The position numbers and the translations under genes were made by a program. Below are positions 2,692-31,734 of a stretch of 31,734 nt of DNA, one piece after another. Source of the DNA: Acanthamoeba castellanii str. Neff (taxonomy: Eukaryota > Discosea > Longamoebia > Acanthamoebidae); assembly GCF_000313135.1 (NCBI RefSeq), contig NW_004457350.1, positions 69,958 through 101,691 of the forward strand, in the 5' to 3' direction. Below the pieces are notes generated by a model. The model saw nothing but the letters and a program-made list of their open reading frames with translations, ran no database searches and was not told where the DNA came from. Each line of letters begins with the position of its first letter. The stretch's first letter is position 1.

Positions 2692-4408
2692 ATGGCCTCC
2701 TCGGCAAAGAAGGAATCAGTGGAAGCGAGTACTTCGCCTTCTTCCTCTGGCCTTTCCCTCCTTCGCCACATTCGCCATCCTCCTGCTACGCAGGCCTCCT
2801 CCTCCTCCTCATCTTCATGTTCTTTGCCCGTTCCACCACCTGCGGTCACAGCCGTCGGCCAGCGGCGAGAGTCCTCGTCGCCCATCGCGGTCCCCACATT
2901 GGCGGGGGCGGGGGCGGGGGCGGGGGCGAGCAGCGTAGTGCCCAAGCAGCATCTCGTAATCGAATGCACGCGCGAGAACGAGGCCCTTACATCGGCCCTG
3001 CTGAGCTTCCTCGAGGCCTTCACAGCCCCACGCCACATGGCGCAGCACAAGCAGAGCGGCGCCTGGTACCACGGCGAATGCCGCGTAATCCGACATGGCG
3101 AAGGCACCGCCCACCACAGCGGCGCGGGCGCCGTGGTCAGCGGCCTCTGGGAGCACAACGTCTACAAGGGTCCCAAGGCCAAGGCCTCTTCCTCCCTCTA
3201 CTCGTCATCGTCATCATCATCGACAGCATCATCGTCGCTATTCTCCTCTTCATCTTTCCACCATCTGCCCCTCTCCTCGGCCGACATCAGAGAGCTGCCC
3301 GAGGACGAGGGCATCGTGTCGCCGCCCCTGTCGCCCCCGCGTTCTGGGCCTTCGTCCACGTCCCACATGACCTCGGCCTCGACATCGTTCGCCACGTTCG
3401 CGAGTAGCGCCTCCCCCTCCTCCTCGTCCAGCTCTACACACCACCTGGCGGTGGCCACCACAAGCGAACCGCGTAGCGCCTCCTCCTCCTCGGCGGCGGA
3501 GGGCGTAGCGCGGCTCTCGCGGCTCCTCCCGCTGGGCTCCACCATCCACGAGTTCTTCTTCCCCGACGAGCTCCTCCTCTACGTCTTCAGCTTCCTCGAC
3601 ATCCAGTCCCTCTGCACCTGCGGTACTCCCTCCCCCCCTTTCTACTTCTACCCCCCCGTCAATCATGAGAGCTCATCGTGCTCTACGTCGTCGTCGTCGT
3701 CGGTGCACCATCATCGTCGCCCACCAGCCCAGGTGTCGACCGACTGGCGACGCCTCACCAACGACGCCGTGCTATGGACGGACCTGCACATCCGCATGCA
3801 GTTACGCCCGCCTCACCACACACACGCACACACGCACACACGCACACACGCACGTCAGCTGGCGGAGCCGTCGGCGCACGACTACTGCACACCAACCGGC
3901 CGCCCGGCCCCTGGCTGATCCTGAGTTCGCGCGACGTGTGTGTGTCGTGTGTGTTCTGTGTGCAGGTGGGGGCTGCCGGATGAGAAGGAGGAGGGCGCGA
4001 CGCGCGACTGGCGCGAGATCGTGAAGGGGCGCTACCTCCTCGAACGCAACTGGCTCAACGGTCACTACCACATGAGCACCCTCCGCGGCCACACGGGCTG
4101 GTACGTCTACACCCGCCTGGCGCCACCACCCACCGCGTCATCTGCCACACACACACACACACACACCCTTTCGCCGCGCTCCATGATCATGTCGCGATCC
4201 TGTTCGGGCGCACATCACACATCACGCGACACAACACACACGCGCCGATATGTTATCTATTGACGCGCGCGCGTGTCGTCGTGCGTGGTGGATGCAGGGT
4301 CACGTGCGTCGATTTCTACGCCAACAAGCTGGTGAGCTCAAGCTACGACGGGACCGTGAGGATCTGGAACACGCAAACAGGTACACGACACACACAACAC
4401 ACGCACAC

Positions 4409-4467
<59 letters not shown>

Positions 4468-6051
4468 CACACAAACACGGTTCGTATCGGGTGGCGGCCC
4501 GTATCGCTGACGTGTGCCGGGGTGGGTGGGTGGGCGCGCTGCAGGCAACATGCTGCAGACTCTCAAGAACGAGTCCAACGGCGTCCTCTCGCCCGTGTGG
4601 TGCCTCCAGTTCGACAAGAACCGCATCATGACCGGCTCCTCGGACTCCAAGCTGCGCGAGTTCGATCCCAACACCGGTAACTAACCCATCATCGCGCCAT
4701 TGTGTGTGTCGTGTGTGTCGTGTGTCGTGTGTGTCGTGTGTGCGTGCGAAAACCAACAATGTACCGGGGGGGGGTTTACCGCACGCAGGTCAGTGCACGC
4801 AGGTGATCGGCGGGCACGACGGCGGCGTCAAGTGCCTCCAATTCACCTCGGAGCTGCTCGTCACCGGCAGCGACGACAAGACCATCAAGATATTCGACGT
4901 ACGCACCGGCAAGTACATCAAGACCATCAAGGGTATATCAGCCAACACCCTCACCCACCCCCCTTCAATCGACCACAGCCTGCTCATGCCGTGTCGTGTC
5001 GTGTCGTGTTGCGTGTGTCGTGTGTGTCGTGTCGTGTTGTGTGTCGTTGGTCGTTGTCTACATCAGTGCCGTGTGGGGGGTCGATCAGTTGCCTGCAATT
5101 TCAGGACGATGTCCTATGCACGGCCTCGAAGCGGGAGAAGGCCATCTACACGTTCGACCTCCGGCGGTCCAACCACTACCAGCGCGTGCTGGAGGCCCAC
5201 TCCAAAGCCGTACGTCACCGCACACACCGCCACACATCGCACACACACACACACACACACACACCCCACAAGCCCCAAACCCCATCGGGAGGCTGTTCTC
5301 CGACTGACCTGCGCGGTGTCTTTGGGGCGACACACGACACTCACACGACACACACGACACACACGACACACACGACACACAGGTGTACTGTCTGCAGTTC
5401 GATCTCGCGACCAACAGGCTGGTGAGCGGCGCGAGAGACAGACAGATATTTGTGTGGGATTTCGAGAAGGGCGAGGTCATCAAAAAGCTGAGCGGCCACC
5501 GGTACGCGCTGATCCCCCCCCCTCGCTTGTTCGCTCTTTCCTTTCACCACTCACCGCACCTCCATCTATTCTATTCTATTCTTCTACAATATTACTGTAT
5601 TTTTCTACTTTATTGATATATATATATATATATTGTACAATGTTAAATAGATATACGGTCATGAACCTACGGTTCGACAACAACAAGATCGTGTCCGGGG
5701 CAGCCGATGACAGCCTGCGAATATGGGACATGCACTCGGGGGAGTGCATCCAAATACTCCAGGTCTTCCCCCCTCCCCCACGCCCCTCTTGCCATCTGTG
5801 AACGCAAAGGCTCACAGCGCGCGCCATGTCTTGTGTGGTGTGTGCTGCTGTTGCGTGTCACGTTGGTCGTGTGTGTGTGTGTGCCTATTGTGTGTTGTGT
5901 ATGATCACAACAGGGGCACACGGAAATGGTGACATCGCTCAAGTTCGACGCCAGCAAGATCGTGTCAGGCAGTGCGGATCGCACGTGCATAGTGTGGGAC
6001 TTCCTGCGAGGCCGGCCAGAGGACCGCGGCTTCTCCTTCTTTGGCTACTGA
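2692..6051 (+). CDS. F-box / seven WD40-repeat protein (SCF ubiquitin ligase adaptor type)
   Basis: Ten exons give 669 aa: 2692-3622, 3728-3800, 3966-4100, 4298-4380, 4545-4676, 4789-4932, 5067-5209, 5383-5501, 5651-5762, 5914-6051. All junctions are GT-AG and keep frame. The ATG lies in ACCATGG context. Residues 1-280 are Ser/Ala-rich with few conserved features. An F-box follows at about 285-335 (PDELLLYVFSFLD, then WRRLTNDAVLW after the first intron). Seven WD40 blades fill about 365-669, each with a recognisable GH...W/F-D unit such as GHTGWVTCVDF and GSDDKTIKIFD; blade 4 is degenerate and lacks the usual WD. In this family (Cdc4/Fbw7, beta-TrCP) the F-box binds Skp1 and the propeller binds phosphodegrons, so the inferred role is choosing substrates for ubiquitylation. 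Which substrate cannot be told. It is convergent with the REJ-like gene. Confidence 0.9.
3815..3853. repeat. CACACG/CACA repeat in F-box intron 2
   Basis: Alternating CACACACG units lie just after the donor (intron 3801-3965, donor GTTACG). The same intron ends in a GT-rich tract just before the acceptor at 3965, so the two ends are partly complementary. Confidence 0.8.
4382..4478. repeat. Long CA microsatellite in F-box intron 4
   Basis: More than 60 bases of nearly pure (CA)n directly follow the donor of the intron 4381-4544. It produces several spurious Thr-His and Cys-Val open frames on both strands. Confidence 0.9.
5342..5382. repeat. Four 9-bp CACACGACA units abutting a 3' splice site
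   Basis: Four exact copies of CACACGACA (5342-5377) run straight into CACAG, the acceptor of exon 8 (exon starts 5383). The splice site therefore sits in a tandem repeat with no pyrimidine tract. Confidence 0.8.
5566..5650. repeat. AT-rich tract with (TA)n in F-box intron 8
   Basis: This A/T-rich 3' half of the intron 5502-5650 includes a TATATATA run at about 5616-5633 and ends TTAAATAG before exon 9. It contrasts with the CG/GT-rich neighbouring introns. Confidence 0.75.
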
Positions 6052-6272
6052 GAGGAGAGTGGCTCTTCACATTTCAGCCTTTTTTTAATTTTTGGTGTAT
6101 TTCATAAAACAGTAAAGTGGCGCTGATGCGTAACACACAGCACGCCTTCTTCTATCCCTCTCTCTCTCTCTCTCTCTTCTTCCTCTCTTCTCTTCTCTTC
6201 TCTCTTAGAGGTCAGTTACCTGGCGGCGTTGTGGTGGCGGTGGGGGGGGGCGTAATGGGAGGCGGAGGGCGT
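6052..6272. other. Convergent 3' spacer, F-box and REJ-like genes
   Basis: These 221 bp between two stop codons must hold both 3' UTRs. TTCATAAAACAGTAAA lies about 50 bp after the F-box stop and may serve in 3' end formation. A CT run (about 6156-6207) follows. No gene is seen. Confidence 0.5.
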
Positions 6273-7148
6273 TCACATGTTGTCGTTGTCCGAACCGGCC
6301 GTCGAGTCCTCCTCCTCCGATGACCCGCTCCTCGACGAGCCGCTGCGGCTGCGGCTCGACCGAGACCGGGAGGACCCTCGCGACTGCGACCGGCTGCTGT
6401 GGGACCGGCTCCGGCTCCGGCTCCGGCTCTTGTCGTCGTCGTCGTCGCTGCCGCTGTCGGAGCTGCTGTCACGGTTCCCTTCCTTGTCGTCGTCGGCACC
6501 GCCGCGGCTCTTGGACCTGCTGGACCTGCTGCGGTCGCTCTCCGGCTCGCTGTCGGTCTGCTCCTCGCCCTCTGAGCTGTCGCTCGAGCCGCGCCTGTCG
6601 GGCTCGGGCACCGAACCAGACGAAGGCTTGGGCGCCGCCGCCGCGAGTGGCTGCTGCTTGACGGGGGCCGCAGGCTCCTTCTCGGCTTCGGCTTCCCGCT
6701 GCTGCTGCTGCTGCTGCTGCTTGACGGGAGGCGCCGGCTCCTCCCGCCTCTTCTCCGACGCCTCGCTGTCCCGCCTCTGCTCGCCGCCGCGCTCCTCCTC
6801 GCTCGAAAAGTCCTCGCCGCTGCGCCCTCCCCTCGTACTGCGCACGCACGCGTTGTTGGTGAGTGTCGTGTGCTGACGTGTCGTGTGTGTCATGTGTGTC
6901 GTGTGTCGTGTGTCGTATGTGTCGTATGTGTCGTGTGCCGTGTCGTGTGCAGAGGAGGGCGGTACCTGGGGGAGTCGCGGGAGGATCGGGAGGGCGAACG
7001 TCTCGCGGCGGACCTGGAGCTGGACTTGGAGCGCGAGCCGGATCGTCGCCTCGGGCGCGCGTAGGAGGAGCCGCTGCGCGATCGGCTGTTCGACCTCGAC
7101 CTCGACGAGCGCGAGCGAGTGCGCGAGCGCGCGCGCGATGACTCCCGC
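6273..7148 (-). other. SR-rich, acidic tail-coding exons of the REJ-like protein
   Basis: Exons 10 and 11 (7148-6966 and 6837-6273) encode dense RS dipeptides, a seven-Gln run, KQQ/EAE segments and Ser/Asp-rich blocks, ending DNDNM-stop at 6273. The composition is that of RS domains in splicing factors. The intron between them (6965-6838) is CA-rich in the sense strand. They belong to the membrane-protein gene because every splice phase from the membrane exon onward matches and no good start codon precedes them. Confidence 0.75.
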
Positions 7149-10100
7149 CTGCGCGTACCGCCCCCGCGTGAGCAGCAATCCGGCAAACAAAAAGGACGAA
7201 AACGAAATGAAGAGAAAGAAAGAGGGGGGGGGGCGTACGACATGTCGCCCTCGAACACGATGCGTCCGTTCTGGAATTTGGGGCGGCGGAGCACCACGCT
7301 GGCCTCCGAGTCGTTCTCCGAGGGCAGGCCCAGGTCCTCGGGGCCGGCCTCGTCGGCGGCCAACATCTCGTCGCGCTTGGCGGCCTCGGCGTGGGGCTCC
7401 TCGCCGGCGAGCGCGCCCGCCTGCGCGTCCGACTCGGCGGGGGCCTCGCGCACGGCCGGGATCTCGTACTCGGCCTCCTGCGTCTCCGGCTTCAGGATGT
7501 ACAGACGGAACCCGAACAGCAGAACTGCGTCGTGTCGTGCCGTCACACACAACACACACGTCAGCACGCGCGACACGTCAGCACGTCTAATCGCCGGTGG
7601 CGGTTGGGGGGGGGCGCACTGAGCAGGACGACGATGGCGAAGACGACGAAGATGGCGAGGAGGATCCACCGCTCCTCGCCGCTGCCCGACGACCGGTCCT
7701 CGGCCGCCACGACCGGCGACGCGCTGGGCTGCACCACACTGTGGAGGGGGGGCAACGATTGTCAATCAACGACGACGACGACGACGACATTTAATGCAAA
7801 GCCACGTGCGGGGGGGGGCGTACGGGCCACGGGCGAAGGCGCGCACGGAGAGGAGGGCGCCCGAGACGAGGCTCGAGCAGGCACACGTCGTGCCGCGGCT
7901 CGATGCGACCACCGATCCGGCTGAGCGACGATGGTCAGCACAACATCCACAACCCACACACCGCACGACACGACACGACACGACACGACACGACACGACA
8001 CGACCAACGACACGACACGACCAACGACACGAGTGGTGGTGGGGAGGGGCGTACCGGAACCCGAACCGGCGGGCGAGCAGGACTGGGTCCAGCCAGCGCC
8101 GCTCCAGCTCTGGCACGAGACGTTGTAGCCGCCGGCAAGAGTCTGCGCAAACTCAACTCCGTCAACAAAACCAAAACAAAAACCAAAACAAAACCAAAAC
8201 AAACGGAGGTTTGGGGGGGGGGTTGTACGGGGGATGTTGAGGCCGTTGGGGTTCTCGCTGATGACGGCGGGGTGGGCGATGATGAAGTTCTGCGTGAGCG
8301 GGCCGGCGAGGGCGATGTCGCGGCCGTCGACGCGCACGATGAGCGTGGTCACGGGCGCCATGAGGGTCACGTTGCCGCCGGCCGACGGCTGCGGGTTGAG
8401 CGCGAACGTGCACAGGGCGATCACCACCTCGGCGTCGTCGGCGTCGCCGCCCGCCTGCAGCCGGATGTCCGCCGTGGGCAGCGTCACCGTGACGCCCCCC
8501 GCCTGCATGGTGGCCGGCAGATCGCTCGCCGAGTCTGCGCAATCGGGGGTAAGTCGAACGCCCGACCGCACACGACACGCGACACGCAACACGCAACATG
8601 ACACACACGACACACGACGGGTGGTGGTTGGGTGGGGTGGGGGGTGCGTGCATTTGCCGGCGGCGGCCTGGATGTTGGGGGTGCTCCAGGTGTAGGTGCG
8701 GGTCTGGGCGGAGGCGGCGGCCTGCTCGACGGCGAGCTCGGTGATCAGGGCCACCAGCTCCGACGCAAACGCGCTCGAGTCCAGCGCCAGGGCCTTGTAG
8801 TACTCCAGCAGGTTCGACGCCGCGTTCGCGATGTACTGCACACACCGTGTGTCGTGTCGTGTGTCGTGTGTGCGTGTCGTGTCGTGTCGTGTCGTGTGTC
8901 GAGTGCGTGTCGAGTGTCATGTCAGTCGCGCTGGGGAGAATGAAGGCGGAAGTGAAGGCGGACGTACGGCGCGGTCGGAAGATTGCGGGGAGGCGGCGAC
9001 GAGCTCGCGGAGGTGTTGCACGACGTGCAGGCCGAGGTCGGTGCTGCCGCTTCGCTTGGCCTTGGGCGCCACCGTGTGGAGGCCGCGCCGGCCCGCAGTG
9101 GTGGTGGTGGTGCGGGAGCCGCCGGCGAGAAGGTAGAGCAGGTGGGCCTGGACGGTGGTGGCGTCGGCCGAGCGCTCAAAGGCCAGCTGGCGGCGCAGCA
9201 CGTCGAACACGGCCTCGCGCACGTCGCGCTCCGTGGAGCCGACGGCGAAAGGGTTGCCGGCGGTGCCGACGGCGGTGTTGAGCTCGAACAGGAGCGAATA
9301 GAGGAGCGTCGGAACGAGGTCCACGCGCCCGCGCTGGATGGCCTCGAGGCCGGCGCCGCTGGCGAGCAGCGCGGCGACCGCCTCGGCCGAGTCGGCGAGG
9401 GCGGCCTGCACGACGACGCCCGATGCGACCTCGAGCAGCCGGGGCTCGGCGGCGCTGTCGCTCTCCGCTTCGCCCTCGGCAGCAGCCGACGCCGGCGGGG
9501 CGTAGGCGGGCGAGCCCGTGCGATCAAAGACGCGCGCGTAGAGAGCCAGCGATTCTTCGCCGGCGCTGCCGGTCGAGGGCAGGTAGGTCTCGACGCGGCC
9601 AGCGGCCACCGACCTGTGCGAGCCCAGCGGGAAGAGGCCGCCCAGGACGTCGGCCGAGTGGCGGACGTAGTAGTGCGTAAAGACCGGGCCGTCGTCGGCG
9701 TTGGCCGCGATCGCGGCGTCGAAGCCGGCGCAGAGGGCCGTGGCGAGCGCGGTGCGGCCGGGACCCTTCTCGCCCTCGCCCTCGGGCAGCTGCAGGTCGC
9801 AGGTGCCGCCCCACGGGAAGGCGCCGACGGCAAAGGTGACCTCGGCCCAGCCGGCGGCGGCGGGCGTCGAGGCGGCCCACGGGAGGCCGCCGGTCGCGGT
9901 GGTGGCCCAGTCGGCCGGCTGGAGGAGGTCGTCGGCGTAGCGCGCCACGAGGCGCAGGCGGTACTGGGCGCCGGGCGTGAGCACGTCGGGCCGGAAGGCG
10001 AGCACGGCGGCGTCGCTGCCGGGATCGACCACGGCGGTGAGGTTGGCGTCGATGTCGCCGTCGACCAGCGACCACGCGAGCTCGCTCACGGTGCGGCCCA

Positions 10101-12118
10101 GCGGCGAGGCCACGCTGGCCTCGAACTTGACCAGCGCGTCGGCCGACGGGTCGACGTTGTCGCCGGCGGCCAGCAGGCGCACAAAGACCGTCGGGGCGTC
10201 GCCCCAGCCGATGGTGACGAGCTGGTCGGCCGTGGCCACGTCCAGTGCCATCCCGCGCTTCTCCGCGCCTTCTTCTTCGAAGGGCTTGCCCGCGCGGGTC
10301 ACGGTGAGGGTGAAGCGCCAGTCGCCAGGGGGCAGCGTGCCGGCAGGCAGCGTGACGTGCGGCGCCTGGTAGGCCGCCGTGCCGAGGTAGCGCGCCGCCG
10401 GGCACGCGCCGTCGTCGACGCCCTCGTAGGCCAGATCGGCGCTGCCGGCCCACGCGCACGACCACTGGTAGCTCACCTGATCGTCTTCGCCTTCGTCATG
10501 CTGGGCGGGCGAGGAGCGCAGGGAGCCGTCGAGCTCGATGGGCGCGTAGCGGGACACGTAGCGGGTGCCGGACTCGAGCACGGCGCGCACGGGCTCGTCG
10601 AGCACGGTGACGGTGACGGTGGCCTGGCCGACGTGGCCCAGCAGGCCGGCGCTGGTGGCGGTGAGGGTGAAGCGGTAGGTGGCGCCGGCCTGCAGGGCGT
10701 TGGCCGGGAGGTGGAGGGCGGACGACGTGCGCGAGGCCAGGTCGAGCGCCACCACGGGACCCCCGGTGCGCACCCACGCGTACGAGTAGCGCGCCTCCGG
10801 GTCGCACACGGCCAGCGACGCATCCCGCTTGCACACGCACGGCGGCTCCACACTACCGCGCAGCGACAGGTCGGTGCCCCTCTGGATCGTGGGCTGTGAT
10901 GGAGTAGAACGTAACGTTCTTAGAAGAAGAATAATAATAATCCATACCAAGCAAGATTCGTAATAGCAGACCTCTCCTTCACATCTTTCTCGCAATCTCT
11001 TCTCTTTGCACGTTTGATTGATTTCTTTCCTCATCTACTTTTTTTTCTTTTGTTTTTCACAGATTGGGGGGGGGGGCGAGAACGTACGTTTCCACCAGCG
11101 ATGCGCACGATGACCTGGTCGGTGGCGATGATCTCGACGGGGAAGTAGGCCGTGGAGGAGAGGCCGAGCCAGTTGGTGAGGGTGAGGGAGAAGGTGTAGG
11201 TGCGCGTAGTGTTGAACGAGAGCGAGCTTCCATCGAGCGAGACCACTACGTCGCGCTGGCTGGCCAGGTAGAGCGCCACCCCCTCCGTGACGTCGGTCGA
11301 GTTGTCCTCTGGCGCCACGAGGCCCCACTGGTAGCCGCCCACGTAGGCGCGACCGCCCGAGCCGTAAGAGGCCGATGCATCGAGGGTGAGCACGTCGCAC
11401 CACCCCACGGCCGATGTGCCCTCGATCACCACCACGGGCGCGGCTGGCGTGTCGGGGCTGATCACCAGCAGCACCCGCGATTCGTAATCGTCGAGCGTGA
11501 CGGATGGCGAATCCAGCCGTCCGATTACGCCCTGCCGCAGGGACAGAAGATCGTTGATGGCCACGCTCGCGTAGTAGCCGAAGCGGGCCACGAGGGTGCG
11601 GGCGTCGCGCCACAGGCACACGGAGGCGGAGCCGCCCAGAGCCTCTGCGGACGCATCGTCGAAGACAGTGGAGCAGGGGAACACCCCGCTCTGGCCCGCC
11701 CGGTTGGTGTCAACGTCGAACTGGATGATCAACGCGCCCCCGGCGTCGGACACCTTGGCCAGGTAGCTCAAGGGCAGCGGTGCGTTGGACCCTGCAAGCG
11801 AGTGAGTAAAAACATCATCAACAACATCACATGGTGGTTCTACACCAGTGAAGATGAAAAGTAGAATGGAACAGATCCGGGGGGGGGAGAGATTTGCGGG
11901 AGATGAAAGAACAATCGAGAAGATAGGGACTTAGCAGTACCTTGACGCTGAAGGATGTGGTGGGTGTCAGTTAGGCGGGCGGCGACGAGGGGAGGCGAGG
12001 TGGAAGAGACCAGGGAGAAGAAGAGGAGTGGGAGGAGGAGGAGAAAGGCGGAGAGGAGAGACGAGTGATGTAGTGGTAGCATGTGGCGAGTAGCTGAACG
12101 GGTCCTCGTCTCCGTCAT
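6273..12118 (-). CDS. REJ/GPS-containing single-pass membrane protein with SR-rich cytoplasmic tail
   Basis: Eleven exons give 1547 aa: 12118-11941, 11791-11088, 10893-8968, 8835-8658, 8534-8229, 8156-8055, 7920-7824, 7738-7620, 7524-7239, 7148-6966, 6837-6273. All are phase-consistent; intron 4 must be GC-AG. A signal peptide is clear (LLSAFLLLLPLLFFSLV; translation could start at Met13, 12082). Residues about 60-1000 form beta-rich repeats with REJ/PKD hallmarks (LDASASYGSGG, then YQWSC). Residues about 1000-1150 look GAIN-like and end in a GPS-type Cys/Trp pattern: Cys1112, Trp1115, Trp1120, Cys1124, Cys1144, Cys1146. One membrane helix lies at about 1188-1211, split by an intron. The roughly 335-residue tail is acidic, then Arg-Ser repeats, poly-Gln and Asp runs. 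In polycystin-1 the REJ-GAIN module precedes 11 membrane segments; here only one is present. A surface receptor or adhesion role is likely; the tail's role is unknown. Confidence 0.8.
7958..8030. repeat. (CGACA)n minisatellite in REJ-gene intron 6
   Basis: Tandem ACACG units with two interspersed CGACCAACGACACG variants lie in the intron 8054-7921. Very similar units occur in the long minisatellite at 27987-28272. Confidence 0.85.
8535..8657 (-). other. Probable GC-AG intron (REJ-like gene intron 4)
   Basis: Exon 4 ends GCC G at 8658 and the next bases are GCAAAT; the acceptor GCGCAG ends at 8535. Only this phase-1 junction joins the two conserved-looking frames. No GT in the correct phase exists near the end of exon 4. 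The interval contains the usual CA/CGACA intron repeats, although it happens to lack stops in frame, so retention cannot be excluded. Confidence 0.6.
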
Positions 12119-20569: not shown

Positions 20570-22391
<1,822 letters not shown>

Positions 22392-25700: not shown

Positions 25701-26238
25701 CGTGCGTGTCGTGCGTGTCGTGTGCGTGTCGTGTGGTGGCCGTCCCACGCTAATGCTCTCTCCTCCCCATGTGGCGGCCCAAACGATGGTTAGGTTTATG
25801 TGCAGGATCGGTTGCGTGAGCACAAGGAGCTCGTCTGGACGCTGCTGGAAGAGCAGAAGGCCCATTTTTACATCTGCGGGTACGCACACCGCGGCTCGCC
25901 CTACCACAAACCACGTATCAGGATAGGCGGGAGGGGGCGGGAGGGGGCTGGAGGGGGCTGGCGAGGGCTGTTTCAATTGTGATCGAGCAAGCGACTCAGT
26001 GCTGCTTCTCCGCCACTATATGATCACAATCGTGCGTGGGCTTGCACCAAGAGAGCTGACGTGGGGGCGTTCTTTTTTCTTTCATTACAGTGACGCCGCG
26101 CAGATGGCTCCGGCGGTGCGGGCGGCCGTGGTGGACATCGTGGCGGAGAAGCTCGCCGACAACGACCGGGACCAGGCCGAGGCCTACGTCGCGCGCCTGC
26201 ACGAGCAGGGCCGGTGGGCCACCGACGTGTGGTTCTGA
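22735..26238 (+). CDS. por: NADPH-cytochrome P450 reductase
   Basis: Twelve exons give about 710 aa: 22735-22962, 23098-23262, 23365-23516, 23613-23837, 23981-24088, 24218-24403, 24506-24799, 24897-25132, 25257-25393, 25499-25666, 25794-25879, 26091-26238. All are GT-AG; the exon 2 acceptor could also be 3 bases later. An N-terminal membrane anchor lies at about 18-40 ([19 protein letters not shown]). The flavodoxin-like FMN domain has [10 protein letters not shown] (about 97-106), [13 protein letters not shown] and [11 protein letters not shown]. The FAD domain has RYYSISSSP (about 482-490). The NADPH domain has [11 protein letters not shown] (about 563-573), [12 protein letters not shown] and YICGDAAQMA. 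The end is DVWF, with the nicotinamide-stacking Trp next to last. It moves electrons from NADPH via FAD and FMN to microsomal cytochromes P450 (and, in the family, haem oxygenase and squalene epoxidase) at the ER. Length and motifs are complete. Confidence 0.96.
23852..23930. repeat. 20-bp tandem repeat, GCCCCCACCCGCCCCCGCCT
   Basis: Three exact 20-bp units (23871-23930) follow a 19-bp variant (23852-23870), within the reductase intron 23838-23980. The strand is C-only apart from A, G and T spacers, so the complement is G-rich with four or more G-runs. Confidence 0.9.
24828..24895. repeat. AT-rich TATCTAAA tandem repeat in reductase intron 7
   Basis: About eight diverged copies of TAAATATC/TATCTAAA occupy nearly all of the intron 24800-24896, ending TAAAAAAAG at the acceptor. 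The base composition is sharply different from the adjacent GC-rich exons. Confidence 0.85.
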
Positions 26239-26370
26239 TCGTGCCACCGCCCTCACCCGCCCCCTCGCTTGCCATGGTGACATGGTTTGGTTTGGTGCTC
26301 TTCTTCATTCACTATATAGGTACAAGGGACAACACCATCCACCATCCACCATCATCCACCACCATTTGTG
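26239..26370. other. Short convergent spacer, reductase and AlkB-SRA gene
   Basis: Only 132 bp separate the two stop codons, so the 3' UTRs probably overlap or abut. It holds CACTATATAGGTACAAG at about 26310 and an ATCCACCATC repeat at 26336-26363. No gene is seen. Confidence 0.55.
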
Positions 26371-29073
26371 TCAATGCGCGCTGGTCTTGTCGCGCGAAGG
26401 CGAAGGTGGTCTGCTGGTGCGTCGGCTCGACTTGCGCGTGCTCGCGCTGCTCGGCTTGGGGTCGGCCTTGCGTTTGCCCTCGCGCTCCTCCGGCGGCTCC
26501 GTGTAGATGCCCAACCGCGGCTCGATCGCCACCTTGCCCCCCAACCACCACCACAAACAATGATGACACGTCAGCACCACACGTCGTGTCGTCGTCATCG
26601 TCGTCATTCAGCCCAAGGCGCGGAGGGTGGCGCACGCCGCGGGGCATCTGCTGGGCGACCCACACCAAACGGTGCTCCGTGTCGGCCCAGTGCGGGACCA
26701 GCATGGCGGGCGCCCGCGGCTTCGGCGCCTGTTGATGCCCCCCCCCCATCAGCCAAAGAACGAAGAAAAAAGAACGAAGAGCGAAGCGGCACCTCGGGCC
26801 TTGGGAGGGTGTCGAGGTGGTCGATGCAGGGCACGCCCGGGTGCTCCTGCTCCAGGTGGTCGTAGAGGAAGGCCGCCGCGCTCGCGATGTCCGCCTCCGA
26901 GTACGTGCCCTGCAGCTGATGAGGCGCTCTTCGTCAGCCTGTGTGTGTCGTGTGTGTCGTGTGTGTGTCGTGTGTGTGTGTCGTGTGTGTGTGTCGTGTG
27001 TCATGTGTGGAGTGGAGGTGGGTGGGCGACCAACCTTGGCGACGAGCCAACGGAAGGTCACCTTCGTTCTGACGCAAGCCGGGAGATGGCGAATGTGGTC
27101 GTGCACGGCGTAGGCCATGCGGGCCTTGCGCAGCGTGGACACGAACAAGGGCGTGTAGAGCTCGCTACCCGACATCACCCTGCGCGCGCGCGCGCTGTGT
27201 GAGCTGGCCCAGCCCAGCGAACAACAACGACGACGACATTGACGACATTGACGACATCGACGACGTTGATGATGACGACGACGTTGACGACGGCGACGAT
27301 GAGACGCACCTGATCCAGGCGCGGAAGGGGTTGTCGACGCGCAGCCACAGGCCGGACATGCCGTAGTCGAGGTGGAGCGGGGAGGCCGGGGCCGCGAGGA
27401 CCCAGGTCGACGGGTGGCCCGTGACCTGGCCGACGACGCTCGCCCGGGCGTCCGGTCGGACGCGCTCCAGCGACACCATGCCGCCCGACTGGTCTGTTAC
27501 CCCCCCCACCGCACGCACCGCACACACACCGCACGCACGACAATGAGTGATGGCGCACGCGCACACGCGCGCGAGTGTTGTCAAGAAGAGCACCGAAGAG
27601 GCAGGCGTTGGTCAGGAAGTAGCAGGGCAAGCCCTGTTCGGGTTCCTTGATGCCCACGTGGGCCTCCAATTGATTGGTTGATTGAAACAAAAAGTCAGCG
27701 CGGCACGCACGACTTTTTGAATCAATAAAGAAGAACGAAGAACGAACGAAGAAGAACGAACGAAGAACGAAGAACGAAGAACGAACGAAGAAGAACGAAC
27801 GAAGAAGTGGACAACGACATGGGGCGCGTACCTGGGTGAGGTCCTCGAGGCTGCAAAGGTACTCTGCGATCCTCGCCTCCGCCTTTCTTTCGCCGCCGCC
27901 GCCACGCGGGTCATCCCGGCTGTGCGCCGCTTCGGCTCGTAGCCGCGCGTGCACCGCGACAGCCCGCTCACCTGGAAGAGAACACATCGTTTCGTTGGTC
28001 GTTGGTCGTGTCGTTGGTCGTTGGTCGTGTCGTTGGTCGTGTCGTTGATCGTGTCATTGGTCGTGTCGTTGGTCGTGTCGTTGGTCGTGTCGTGTCGTTG
28101 GTCGTGTCGTGTCGTGTCGTGTCGTGTGTGTCGTGTGTGTGCCGCGTGTGTGTCGTGTGCCTGATTACATTATGCGTCGTGTGTCGTGGGTTTCGTGTCG
28201 CGTGTCGTATGTGTCGTGTCGTTTGTCGTGGTGCGTGTCGTGTCGTGTCGTTGGTCGTGTCGTGTCGTTGGAGAGAGGCGGGTGGCAGGTACGGAGCTGG
28301 AAGAGCGGGAGGGAGTTGAGGTAGCCCAGGAGCTCGGGGAGGGTGAGGCGATCGGAAAGGTGCGCGCTTCGGTGGCGGATGAGGTACGCGTGGAGCTGAA
28401 ACAGAGGCAGGCCCGCAAACGAGTCCGCCGCAAGCCGCTTCTCTTCGCCCACCGCCAGCACATAGCCTGAACAAAGAGAGACACCTTGACGTTAGCACAC
28501 GCACGACACGCACGACACACGCACGACACACACCACACACACGACACACACACACACACACCACACACGACACACTCAAGCCACCGGCGGTACCGAGGCG
28601 ATGATCGAGATCCAAGTTTGCGGCGGAGGGCGGGGTGCCGAACATGATGTGCGCCGCGACGGCCGACTCCCTGCTCCAGCGACAACACAGTGCGGCCTGG
28701 GCGGCGGCGGCCTAATGTAGGAGCCGCAGCCCACTACAATAAGAAGAGAAGAAAAGAAGAGAAGAACAAAGAAAAGAAGAAAACAGAACTGCACCTCGTG
28801 TGGGCCGGCGTCGGCCACTGCCTGCCGCGATGGTGGAAAGTCCACCTCGATTGCGTCGTCGTCGTCGTCCTCCTCCACCTCCACCTCCGCTTCATCCATT
28901 TGCTGCGTTTCCGGTTCCAACGTCGTTGCCTGCTCGTGCCTGTCGCCATCGCTTCGAAGCTGTTGGCACGCCGGCCTCTTCCTCTTCTTCCTCCTCCTCT
29001 TCTCCTTCGTAGTCGTGCCGCGTCGCCTTCTCTTTCGCTTTCTGCTCGCTCCCCCTTTCTGGCCGTCGTCGTC

Positions 29074-29104
<31 letters not shown>

Positions 29105-31734
29105 TCGCTCTCTTTCCCGTCGCTGTCTTCCACGACCCCGTGCTCCTAATGCGCGACGAGATGACGGGTGAGATTATGCGTGTGTGTCGTGTGTGCGTGT
29201 GTGTGTGCGTGTGTGTGCATCCTGTGCGTGTTGTGTGTGTCGTGTGTGCGGCGTTGTGTGTGTGTGTGTGTGTGTGTGTCGTGTGTGTCATGTGTGAAAA
29301 GAGTGTTTTGGGGGGGGAGACATACGAGAGGAGGGCGGTAGGTGTGTTCGCGGGAGAGGGCCTCGAGGCTGACGTAGATGCGGTAGAGGCCGTCCACTTC
29401 GACCACGTAGGCGCCGCGGCACGTGAACAGGCCTCGATAGTGCCACTTGTCTTCTCCGTCGGGGCCGCACTGCGGGGCAAACGGCGACGTCGTCGACGAG
29501 CTGACCACCACCTGAGTGAGCCACACGAAGAACGAAGAACGAACGAAAGAACGAACGAAGCGAGGGGTCAAGATCAAGACGATCGAGGAAAGAAGGGGAG
29601 GTGAGAGATGGGACCCTGATCGGTTTGTTGGACAGCATCGAGGTGAGCCACGGCTTGTTCCTCTCGTTGGAGAATGTGGCATCGATGTCCGGCTGGCCGC
29701 CACTGCTCGAGTCAAACGCGCGCGTGTTGTGTGTGGGTCGTGTGTCGTGTGTGTGTTGTGTGTTGTGTGTCGTGTGTGTTGAAACGTGCGTCACGGCAGT
29801 CGTAGTATTGCCAACAATAGTGGTCCACCACGGGAGAGGCGTACCGGCGGCTGTGGGTGCCGTTCGTAAAGCAAACGATGCTGTCCAGCCGGTCCATGTT
29901 AACGAGATTGCGTTCCCGGCCCATCTTCATCGACCTCACGCCTTTGCGTGTGTCGTTGTCGTGTTGTGTGTCGTTGTCGTTGTGTCGTTGTCGTTGTTAA
30001 CACGATTGTTTCGTTTCGTTTTGCTCATTTTTAAAAATAAACAACAAGATGGCCACACATAAGTATTACTTCTTCTTCTCTCCATAGGCGTCAAAGGTCG
30101 TACCTTCTTTGCTCGTTCCCGCGACGGCTTGTACTGCATCACCCCCGCATAACATATATATATACACCACATGTGTGAGCGCCAACTCGATCGATCGATG
30201 TGGATAGAGTGATATGTAGAAATATGTATAGATGTATATATGAAATATGAAATATACCATGGGTGGGATGGAGCCCGGTCTCCATCACCGGCGAAAATGA
30301 TTCGAAGACGTGACCGACCGGGACTTGCGGCGGGTGGCCGAAGAAGCTGGGCTGCTTCTTCCTTAGCGCTGCGATAGATAGATAGACGCGCCCAATTACC
30401 AAAATCAGTTACGAGATATCACATATACATACATGTTGCAAAAGTAATACTAGTAAATATATTGATATATTTGATAATAATGATATATATTTATATATGA
30501 CTGCAGTGAGAGCACAGGCAGACCTTTCGCGATCCAAAACGGATCGCGCTCGGCCAGCGTAAGACAGCCGGGAGGTTCGACCTTGCATTGCCACCACCAC
30601 CCAAAAGAGGAGTCCACAGTTATTCACCAAACAAACCACGGTAAATAAATAAATAAATAAATACATGAATAAATAAATAAATACATGAATAAATAAATAG
30701 CGGTCGTGGTGTACCGTGGTGTGAGAGTCGTCCACATTCAGGAGGAACCGCGCGGTGATGGACCACCGCTCGGATTTCACCTCCGGCGCTGCGGGGATCT
30801 GGCCAAGGGGGAATATATATATATAGATGTGTATGAGTGTATATGAATATATATAAGATGCGGGTGGTCCAAAGCGTACCCAATGCTCAAGATGTTTCTG
30901 AAAGTCGCCCTCCATTATGTACAGAGACCGGTGCGGCTGCACGCCATTCGCAAGAGTGAGCGCTCAACTTATGCTGCGTACCACACGCACGCACGCACAT
31001 GCACCACCGCACATGCACGACACACACACACACACAACGGTTGAGAGGGGTGCAAACGAACCAGTGACACGATCCATTTCTTCCCTGCGCCTCTGTCTTC
31101 GAAACAAAAGTCTCGCTCCCTAAAGATATGGCGGTGTCAAAGCGAGGTGGGTGTCGTCGCCATGACTGCGACTCCCGCAGCCCCAGCCGCCGCCGCCACC
31201 ACAGCCGCAGTGAAATTCGGGAGTGCCGTGACGTACGCGCCAAGGGAGACCGTGACCACGCGGCCGTCCTTCACGTTGGCTTGGTCGTCCGCGTGCTTGC
31301 CAATGTATTGAAGCCCTGATGACGTGTGCGTCGTCGTCATCATGTGTGTGGGGGTGACCGCGCGGTACACGAAGCGACAACGGTTACGCGTTGGTACCGG
31401 CCCGCCGGCGCGTACCGTTGAGGTATCTGGTACACAGGAAGGAGTTGACCTCCACTTTCAGCTCATCCACCATCTTCTTCTTGAGCTGAAGGACGTTCAT
31501 CATCGGCGCCGACAACAACGACCATCACACACACACACACACACACGACACACACACGACACACACACATCGGGGTCAGCGCCTCCAAGCCGTCTCACCC
31601 TGGGAAAAGAACGAAGAAGACGAAGAAGAAGAACGAAGGAGAAAGAAAGAGGCACCGCGATGAGTTCCGGCGGTGCTTTCGACCAGGGCTGGGTGACGAC
31701 GGTCACACCGTGGTAAGCCACCGTGGAGCCAAAG
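26371..31734 (-). CDS. AlkB-type 2OG-Fe(II) dioxygenase fused to SRA(YDG)-like and RFD-like domains (5' end off window)
   Basis: Twenty-two exons, all in phase: 31733-31656, 31485-31416, 31315-31237, 31119-31062, 30936-30880, 30798-30715, 30581-30524, 30368-30258, 30133-30104, 29941-29845, 29702-29615, 29511-29326, 29145-28795, 28696-28594, 28466-28293, 27971-27832, 27663-27594, 27493-27310, 27179-27035, 26909-26793, 26728-26636, 26532-26371; 844 visible residues. Residues 1-142 are AlkB-like: CTRYLNG, then YIGKHADDQ (His57, Asp59), VVTVSLGA, SLYIMEGDFQKHLEHW (His113) and RWSITARF (Arg125, Arg131, for 2-oxoglutarate). Residues about 162-330 match SRA in order: FGHPPQVPVGHVFES, GLHPTHVQAVAGTSKEG, LDSIVCFTNG, KPIRVVVSS, SPFAP, HYRGLF. 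A 117-residue acidic/Lys-Arg linker (333-449) suggests nuclear location. Residues about 600-710 (YFLTNACLFDQSGG, GLWLRVDNPFRAWI) resemble DNMT1 RFD. Inferred role: oxidative removal of a base methyl mark in chromatin; the substrate is unknown. Confidence 0.85.
27228..27300. repeat. GAC/GAT trinucleotide repeat in AlkB-SRA intron
   Basis: An imperfect (GACGACATT/GACGACGTT)n series lies inside the intron 27309-27180. It would read as Asp-rich or Val/Val-rich peptide if translated, but lies between matched splice sites. Confidence 0.75.
27728..27806. repeat. GAACGAAGAA purine repeat in AlkB-SRA intron
   Basis: Tandem AAGAACGAACGAAG units; the sense strand reads TTCGTTCTTCTTCGTTC. It lies in the intron 27831-27664, just downstream of the GTACGC donor. 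Confidence 0.85.
27987..28272. repeat. About 285-bp TCGTGTCGTTGG minisatellite
   Basis: Plus-strand units of TCGTTGG and TCGTGTCGT in changing order fill almost the whole 321-bp intron 28292-27972, the longest intron in the window. On the sense strand they read CCAACGACACGA. The same two unit types, in smaller number, form the 7958-8030 array in another gene. Confidence 0.9.
28498..28575. repeat. CACACGACACAC repeat in AlkB-SRA intron
   Basis: CA-rich units with periodic CGACA lie inside the intron 28593-28467; on the sense strand the tract is GT/TCGTGT and follows the donor. Confidence 0.8.
28795..29145 (-). other. Exon encoding acidic and basic nuclear linker
   Basis: A single exon of 117 codons. 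It begins EHGVVEDSDGKES, has a run of ten or more Asp, then a Lys/Arg cluster (RKRKRRRR, KEKRRRKKRKRP) that is a strong nuclear-localisation candidate, then a Glu/Asp-rich end. It separates the SRA-like domain from the C-terminal region. Confidence 0.8.
29176..29290. repeat. GT microsatellite in AlkB-SRA intron
   Basis: GTGTGTCGTGTGTGCGTGTG units lie in the intron 29325-29146; on the sense strand they are CA-rich. Confidence 0.85.
30146..30255. repeat. AT-rich intron with (TA)n and (GATC)n
   Basis: The intron 30257-30134 contains ATATATATAT near 30154-30163, ATCGATCGATCG near 30189-30200 and ATATG-rich sequence to 30255. It is far more AT-rich than most introns in the window. Confidence 0.75.
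30642..30700. repeat. (AAAT)n repeat with ACATGAAT spacers
   Basis: Two similar blocks of TAAATAAATAAATAAATACATGAA lie inside the intron 30714-30582 of the dioxygenase part. Confidence 0.85.
31604..31650. repeat. AAGAACGAAGA purine repeat in the right-most intron
   Basis: This is the same element family as at 18841-18923, in the intron 31655-31486. A CA tract (31527-31570) fills the rest. Confidence 0.8.

Follow-up and report, generated by a model that had tools for sequence, protein, structure and literature searches.

A predicted Acanthamoeba castellanii gene joining AlkB, SRA and replication-foci-type domains, with a possible role at maintenance-methylation chromatin

A stretch of 31,734 nucleotides of the Acanthamoeba castellanii Neff genome (contig C183, positions 69958-101691, of a 38.4 Mb assembly; hereafter the window) carries on its minus strand, at 31733..26371, a gene in which an AlkB dioxygenase domain, a SAD/SRA domain and a domain resembling the replication-foci domain (RFD) of DNMT1 are very probably joined, as judged from the translated exons. 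A gene combining these three modules had been proposed in a first-pass annotation, and it was found again at these coordinates. The spliced model consists of 23 exons and 22 introns and encodes 859 amino acids, which replaces the earlier count of 22 exons, 21 introns and 844 amino acids; the exons are phase-matched, as had been claimed, and all 22 introns have GT-AG borders and consistent phases. The stop codon lies at 26373..26371, whereas the 5' end of the gene is open into a run of 4,981 N at C183:101692-106672. The GC content at third codon positions (GC3) was 0.83 over the whole model and 0.74 in exons 1-7, and the GC content of the introns was 0.51.

The NCBI protein ACA1_139560 (A. castellanii Neff; 737 amino acids, uncharacterized), for which Pfam lists an SRA domain only, has the same sequence as the model from residue 128 onwards, so the part of the gene from the interior of exon 7 to exon 23 has been annotated independently. 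The two depart from each other at 30788..31077 (minus strand): ACA1_139560 starts at 31077, with an ATG that lies in exon 5 but in a different reading frame, and its splice to 30788 within exon 7 skips exon 6, which encodes the distal histidine. With exons 1-4 and exon 6 left out, the AlkB iron ligands (HxD and the distal histidine) are missing from the annotated protein, and the public annotation thus hides most of the AlkB domain. The final strand of that domain, RWSITARFLLN in exon 7, is in frame with the SRA domain inside ACA1_139560; the presence of both in one annotated protein argues that AlkB and SRA belong to one gene.

The AlkB domain (2OG-FeII_Oxy_2, PF13532) is encoded by exons 1-7 (30715..31733, minus strand; residues 1-152). 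It scored 45.4 bits in the whole model and 50.1 bits when the AlkB piece was scanned alone (cut-off 31.2), and the match spanned positions 65-194 of the 194-position profile. The active-site residues named in the first-pass annotation were all recovered: in the alignment with ALKBH2, HxD is H67/D69, the distal histidine is H123 and the R-x5-R motif is R135-x5-R141, with a His-to-Arg spacing that matches ALKBH2. The closest solved structures were ALKBH2 chains (best E 1.1e-6), and ALKBH3 was found at 0.019.

Exons 8-13 (29326..30581, minus strand) encode a linker and the SAD/SRA domain, the profile match of which covers residues 181-313. PF02182 scored 38.2 bits in the whole model and 42.9 bits on the SRA piece alone (cut-off 30.7), in agreement with the SRA-type fold proposed earlier, and the solved SRA relatives were TagI (9.1e-5), UHRF2 (0.0018) and UHRF1 (0.0055). 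The motif GGYxDD, which we take to be the 5-methylcytosine (5mC) pocket motif, is replaced by GRERNLVNMD (residues 226-235). It is kept in four of the five SRA domains compared (UHRF1, TagI and the A. castellanii loci on contigs C148 and C154), the fifth, UHRF2, having GGFADE; the comparison leaves out C78, the third other SRA locus of the genome, where the match comprises the C-terminal half only. These statements are based on HMMER alignments, since MAFFT misaligned the motif region when the window and C148 SRA domains were compared; the HMMER pairing may slip by one residue, and the motif is absent either way. Thus, binding of hemimethylated cytosine by this SRA domain is not to be assumed, and canonical 5mC flipping or reading by it appears doubtful. 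The SRA gene on C154 (41063-41708, plus strand) has an intact GGYEDD and a long acidic C-terminal part; on that contig, exon-by-exon genome scans gave no AlkB match at E ≤ 0.001 and no RFD match at E ≤ 10.

The third module is encoded by exons 18-21 (26793..27663, minus strand; GLPCYFLTN... LDYGMSGLWLR... ELYTPLF... YSEADI). Its likeness to RFD was the riskiest call of the first-pass annotation, and it withstood comparison with other RFDs of the genome despite a Pfam score below the cut-off. BLASTP gave an alignment with the C148 RFD that runs the length of the domain (E 9e-10, 42 of 160 positions identical). In hhalign, the domain matched a profile built from three RFDs (C148, C155 and C9; the window sequence was excluded, and a second C155 match was left out) with an E of 4e-7 and a score of 47.6. 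None of 200 shuffled sequences scored as high (top shuffle 26.1), and the other parts of the window protein (AlkB, SRA, linker and the stretch preceding the RFD) were negative in four cases of four. On these alignments, the third module is homologous to the clear Acanthamoeba RFDs. Against the PDB, the C148 RFD reached DNMT1 chains at 0.0011, and all eight of the matches listed were DNMT1. A two-sequence profile including the window RFD found DNMT1 chains at 8e-5 (best single stretch 0.0017), which is a weaker test because the C148 sequence is part of the profile.

An exon-by-exon scan of the genome with the RFD profile PF12047 gave four matches at three loci, on C148, C155 and C9. The C148 gene (73598-79892, plus strand) was spliced to 26 exons and encodes a UHRF1-like protein of 1,223 amino acids with PHD, SRA, RING and RFD over their cut-offs (RFD 56.5 bits) and a ubiquitin-like stretch just under it (21.0 against 25.4 bits). 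The C-terminus of this protein, after the RFD, is KKTLDHFFKPRA, which resembles a PCNA-interacting peptide (PIP) box. The combination of a UHRF1-like protein with an RFD seems unusual in its own right. A near-identical database protein of 1,218 amino acids, P0002, with PHD, SRA, RING and RFD among its listed families, comes from a contig of 5,128 bases. This contig appears to be a transcript, since the genomic C148 gene spans 6.3 kb with introns, and as a transcript it would support the UHRF1-RFD fusion.

On C9, near 972,832 (minus strand), an RFD of 54.7 bits is followed by a zf-4CXXC_R1 finger of 27.2 bits (cut-off 22.7). The two were joined by hand (about 6265-8000 of the reverse complement, with an N run upstream), and the RFD and this CDCA7-type finger likely belong to one gene. 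At C155 (79762-86104, plus strand), the RFD profile matched twice, and DNA methylase exons lie on that strand as well; the locus is a DNMT1-like gene, and by eye a KKSQGSIKAFF stretch close to its start is similar to a PIP box. The occurrence of RFDs in UHRF1-like, CDCA7-finger and DNMT1-like genes suggests that the RFD is a shared address tag. A study of CDCA7 (PMC10538959) credits A. castellanii with DNMT1, UHRF1, CDCA7 and HELLS and lists from it a class II zf-4CXXC_R1 protein that also has a CHROMO domain; RFD, RFTS and AlkB are absent from its main text. A small contig of 68 kb, C215, holds the two AlkB matches that score highest in the genome together with its top DNA methylase match; the contig is possibly viral, as a Pithovirus-like DNMT has been reported in Neff in PMC12344493.

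Between the SRA and RFD modules, exon 14 (28795..29145, minus strand) encodes a charged linker, in which a run of 10 aspartates is followed by an Arg/Lys-rich stretch that, by eye, is a possible nuclear localisation signal. SH3-A_UBE2O gave a weak Pfam match to the acidic linker (22.3 bits against a cut-off of 24), which was dismissed as composition. Exons 15-17 (27832..28711, minus strand) form a pre-RFD region of unassigned family, where helices appear solely in a very low-confidence structure prediction; the AlphaFold model of ACA1_139560, made with P0002 as the sole second sequence, had a mean pLDDT of 31 and was uninformative. Exons 22-23 (26371..26728, minus strand) encode a basic, Ser/Pro-rich C-terminal tail without a Pfam domain. 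With a threshold of E ≤ 1, Pfam profiles found no UBL, PHD or RING, no methyltransferase (PF00145), BAH or CXXC, and no Tet_JBP (PF12851) in the model. A convergent neighbour at about 26091..26240 (plus strand) has a C-terminal exon that resembles by eye the end of a flavoprotein reductase. Ten neighbouring open frames were scanned, and at E ≤ 0.001 four of them matched any family: the frames 8917..11034 (minus), 2692..3918, 4704..5801 and 21271..22140 (all plus), with matches to REJ/PKD, F-box, WD40 and protein kinase.

The exon-by-exon genome scans missed the window locus with the AlkB (E ≤ 0.001) and SRA (E ≤ 1) profiles. The exons of this gene are too short and divergent to be picked up singly in such scans, and it is the spliced model that carries the evidence. 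When homologues were sought, the full model (7,992 candidates scored from a capped list, E ≤ 0.01) and residues 1-340 (6,053 candidates, E ≤ 1) each gave one match, the annotated protein of the gene itself. A search with the C148 RFD among 317 candidates returned only P0002 and no other DNMT1s, which indicates that these searches have a low reach for divergent relatives. When ACA1_139560 was compared with its own genome, 16 matches were found at the locus and four weak ones elsewhere (E 0.03-0.56), and the C148 relative was not recovered; viral contigs gave no match to ACA1_139560. The locus tag is unmentioned in the open-licence literature searched, and the fusion may still be published; that literature also held no paper combining UHRF1, Acanthamoeba, SRA and PHD, an absence that is no proof.

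PMC12344493 reports both DNMT1 and DNMT3 from A. castellanii, together with a CpG methylation of 1.3%, mostly in repeats and silent genes; AlkB, SRA, UHRF1 and RFD are absent from the main text of that paper. N6-methyladenine (6mA) is reported on expressed A. castellanii genes in PMC12695648. DNA methyltransferase activity is described as one source of 3-methylcytosine (3mC; PMC8610418), ALKBH2 and ALKBH3 as repairing 3mC and 1-methyladenine (1mA; PMC12133304), and RFTS as binding UHRF1 and ubiquitinated H3 (reviewed in PMC13297926).

The reading that we prefer, tentatively and as somewhat short of probable, is that the gene encodes an ALKBH2-type dealkylase which is recruited by its RFD to maintenance-methylation chromatin and repairs mostly 3mC. 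The RFD, perhaps together with the SRA domain, would bring the oxygenase to newly replicated chromatin occupied by UHRF1 and DNMT1. There the AlkB domain would oxidatively strip N-methyl lesions, most likely 3mC made off-target by DNMT1 or DNMT3, so that the protein would give the maintenance-methylation apparatus a repair arm of its own. We infer its activity, substrate, targeting and timing from the domains and their relatives. The first-pass annotation had suggested a self-targeted demethylase and a mirror image of the UHRF1-DNMT1 pair. The AlkB residues and the kinship with ALKBH2 agree with the former, whereas its assumption that the SRA domain reads hemimethylated cytosine becomes doubtful with the loss of GGYxDD, the chief finding that speaks against the earlier picture. 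As ALKBH2-type activity is established for 1mA and 3mC, the removal of by-products of methyltransferases is at least as good a fit as the mirror image.

Besides the altered SRA motif, several points weigh against the repair proposal. The first 64 of the 194 AlkB profile positions would fall in the N run. About one-third of the domain, including the N-terminal nucleotide-recognition lid, thus lies there, and the substrate class cannot be read from the sequence; the AlkB N-terminus was not spotted past the N run among minus-strand frames of at least 35 residues inspected by eye. The asparagine of what we take, from its presumed numbering, to be the N-R-Y 2-oxoglutarate site of ALKBH2 is a threonine in the window protein. 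Elsewhere in the genome there are 16 exon-level AlkB matches, which could do generic repair. As to the RFD, the DNMT1-RFD Pfam profile gave no match in the whole model at E ≤ 1 and 16.1 bits on the domain alone (cut-off 22), the exon-by-exon RFD scan detected no window exon at E ≤ 10, and the window RFD alone matched no solved structure at E ≤ 10. No transcript was seen across exons 1-7, and no orthologue was found beyond this genome in searches of limited reach.

Of the alternatives to the repair proposal, the strongest, although an unlikely one, is that the AlkB domain oxidises or removes 5mC itself at maintenance sites, independently of TET, and thereby trims or resets methylation. SRA and RFD would deliver AlkB to methylated or replicating CpGs, and the exon-by-exon genome scan with Tet_JBP gave nothing over the cut-off (one match, 19.9 bits, cut-off 34.9). 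ALKBH2 has also been grouped with TET as a DNA demethylase in PMC11836389, but the assay described there used a 1-methyladenine probe. The established substrates of ALKBH2, the nearest relative, are N-methyl lesions, and the CpG methylation available for erasure is sparse; given the change in the SRA motif and the affinity to ALKBH2, we rank 5mC erasure second to repair. It is less likely again that the AlkB domain is a dead relic kept as a scaffold in a protein that is mainly an SRA-RFD chromatin adaptor. The sequence is divergent, the presumed 2-oxoglutarate-contact asparagine is replaced and the AlkB exons are left out of the public annotation, whereas H67, D69, H123, R135 and R141 are retained at ALKBH2 spacing in a frame that is open over seven exons with a coding-type GC3. 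Removal of 6mA around replicated chromatin appears improbable: 6mA does occur on expressed genes, and Dmt1, a fungal AlkB relative, lowers 6mA (PMC13297926), but SRA and RFD are modules of the 5mC side. Least of all do we expect a separate AlkB gene abutting an SRA-RFD gene and wrongly joined to it, since, although the public model begins at exon 5/7 and the directly adjoining upstream sequence is N, exons 7, 8 and 9 are already spliced together in the NCBI model, with RWSITARFLLN in the same protein as the SRA domain, and neither a stop nor a Met lies between the two.

A wider reading, which includes the repair proposal and which we offer with more reserve, is that the RFD is a portable tag sending a writer, a ligase, a hemimethylation sensor and a base dealkylase to the same newly replicated nucleosomes, its carriers being the DNMT1-like, UHRF1-like, CDCA7-type and AlkB-SRA proteins. 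The window protein would then be either a 3mC proofreader coupled to maintenance or a TET-independent 5mC eraser, the latter with an SRA domain adapted to a different modified base. That RFDs also occur on a UHRF1-like ligase and next to a CDCA7-type finger suggests that this lineage has rearranged its maintenance modules, and it has a bearing on the question of what the RFD reads. An evolutionary analysis by Rosic in 2018 reportedly ties AlkB-type repair to cytosine methyltransferases; AlkB physically joined to SRA and RFD would make that link a testable mechanism in an amoeba that grows axenically, and the fusion, if functional, would tie the upkeep of methylation directly and physically to base demethylation.

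Compared with known systems, the window protein shares HxD, the distal histidine and R-x5-R at equal spacing with ALKBH2, its best PDB match; ALKBH2 has no SRA or RFD fusion, and its RKK stretch is missing from the aligned part of the window AlkB domain. Fungal Dmt1 (AlkB) and CcTet (TET) are likewise dioxygenases acting on DNA methyl groups, with no SRA or RFD fusion mentioned in the available part of PMC13297926. The SRA domain is alike by profile to those of UHRF1, UHRF2 and TagI and lacks the GNKR finger, as does TagI, whereas the UBL, PHD and RING that stand beside the SRA domain in UHRF1 are absent from the model. The third module aligns over its length with the Acanthamoeba RFDs, yet stays under the Pfam cut-off, and the protein has no methyltransferase, BAH or CXXC domain, unlike DNMT1. 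The UHRF1-like protein of C148 shares with the window protein the order of SRA, charged linker and RFD, and the motifs GLPC..LTN and LDY..LWLR within the latter, and it carries a PHD, a RING, a ubiquitin-like stretch and a PIP-like C-terminus where the window protein has AlkB.
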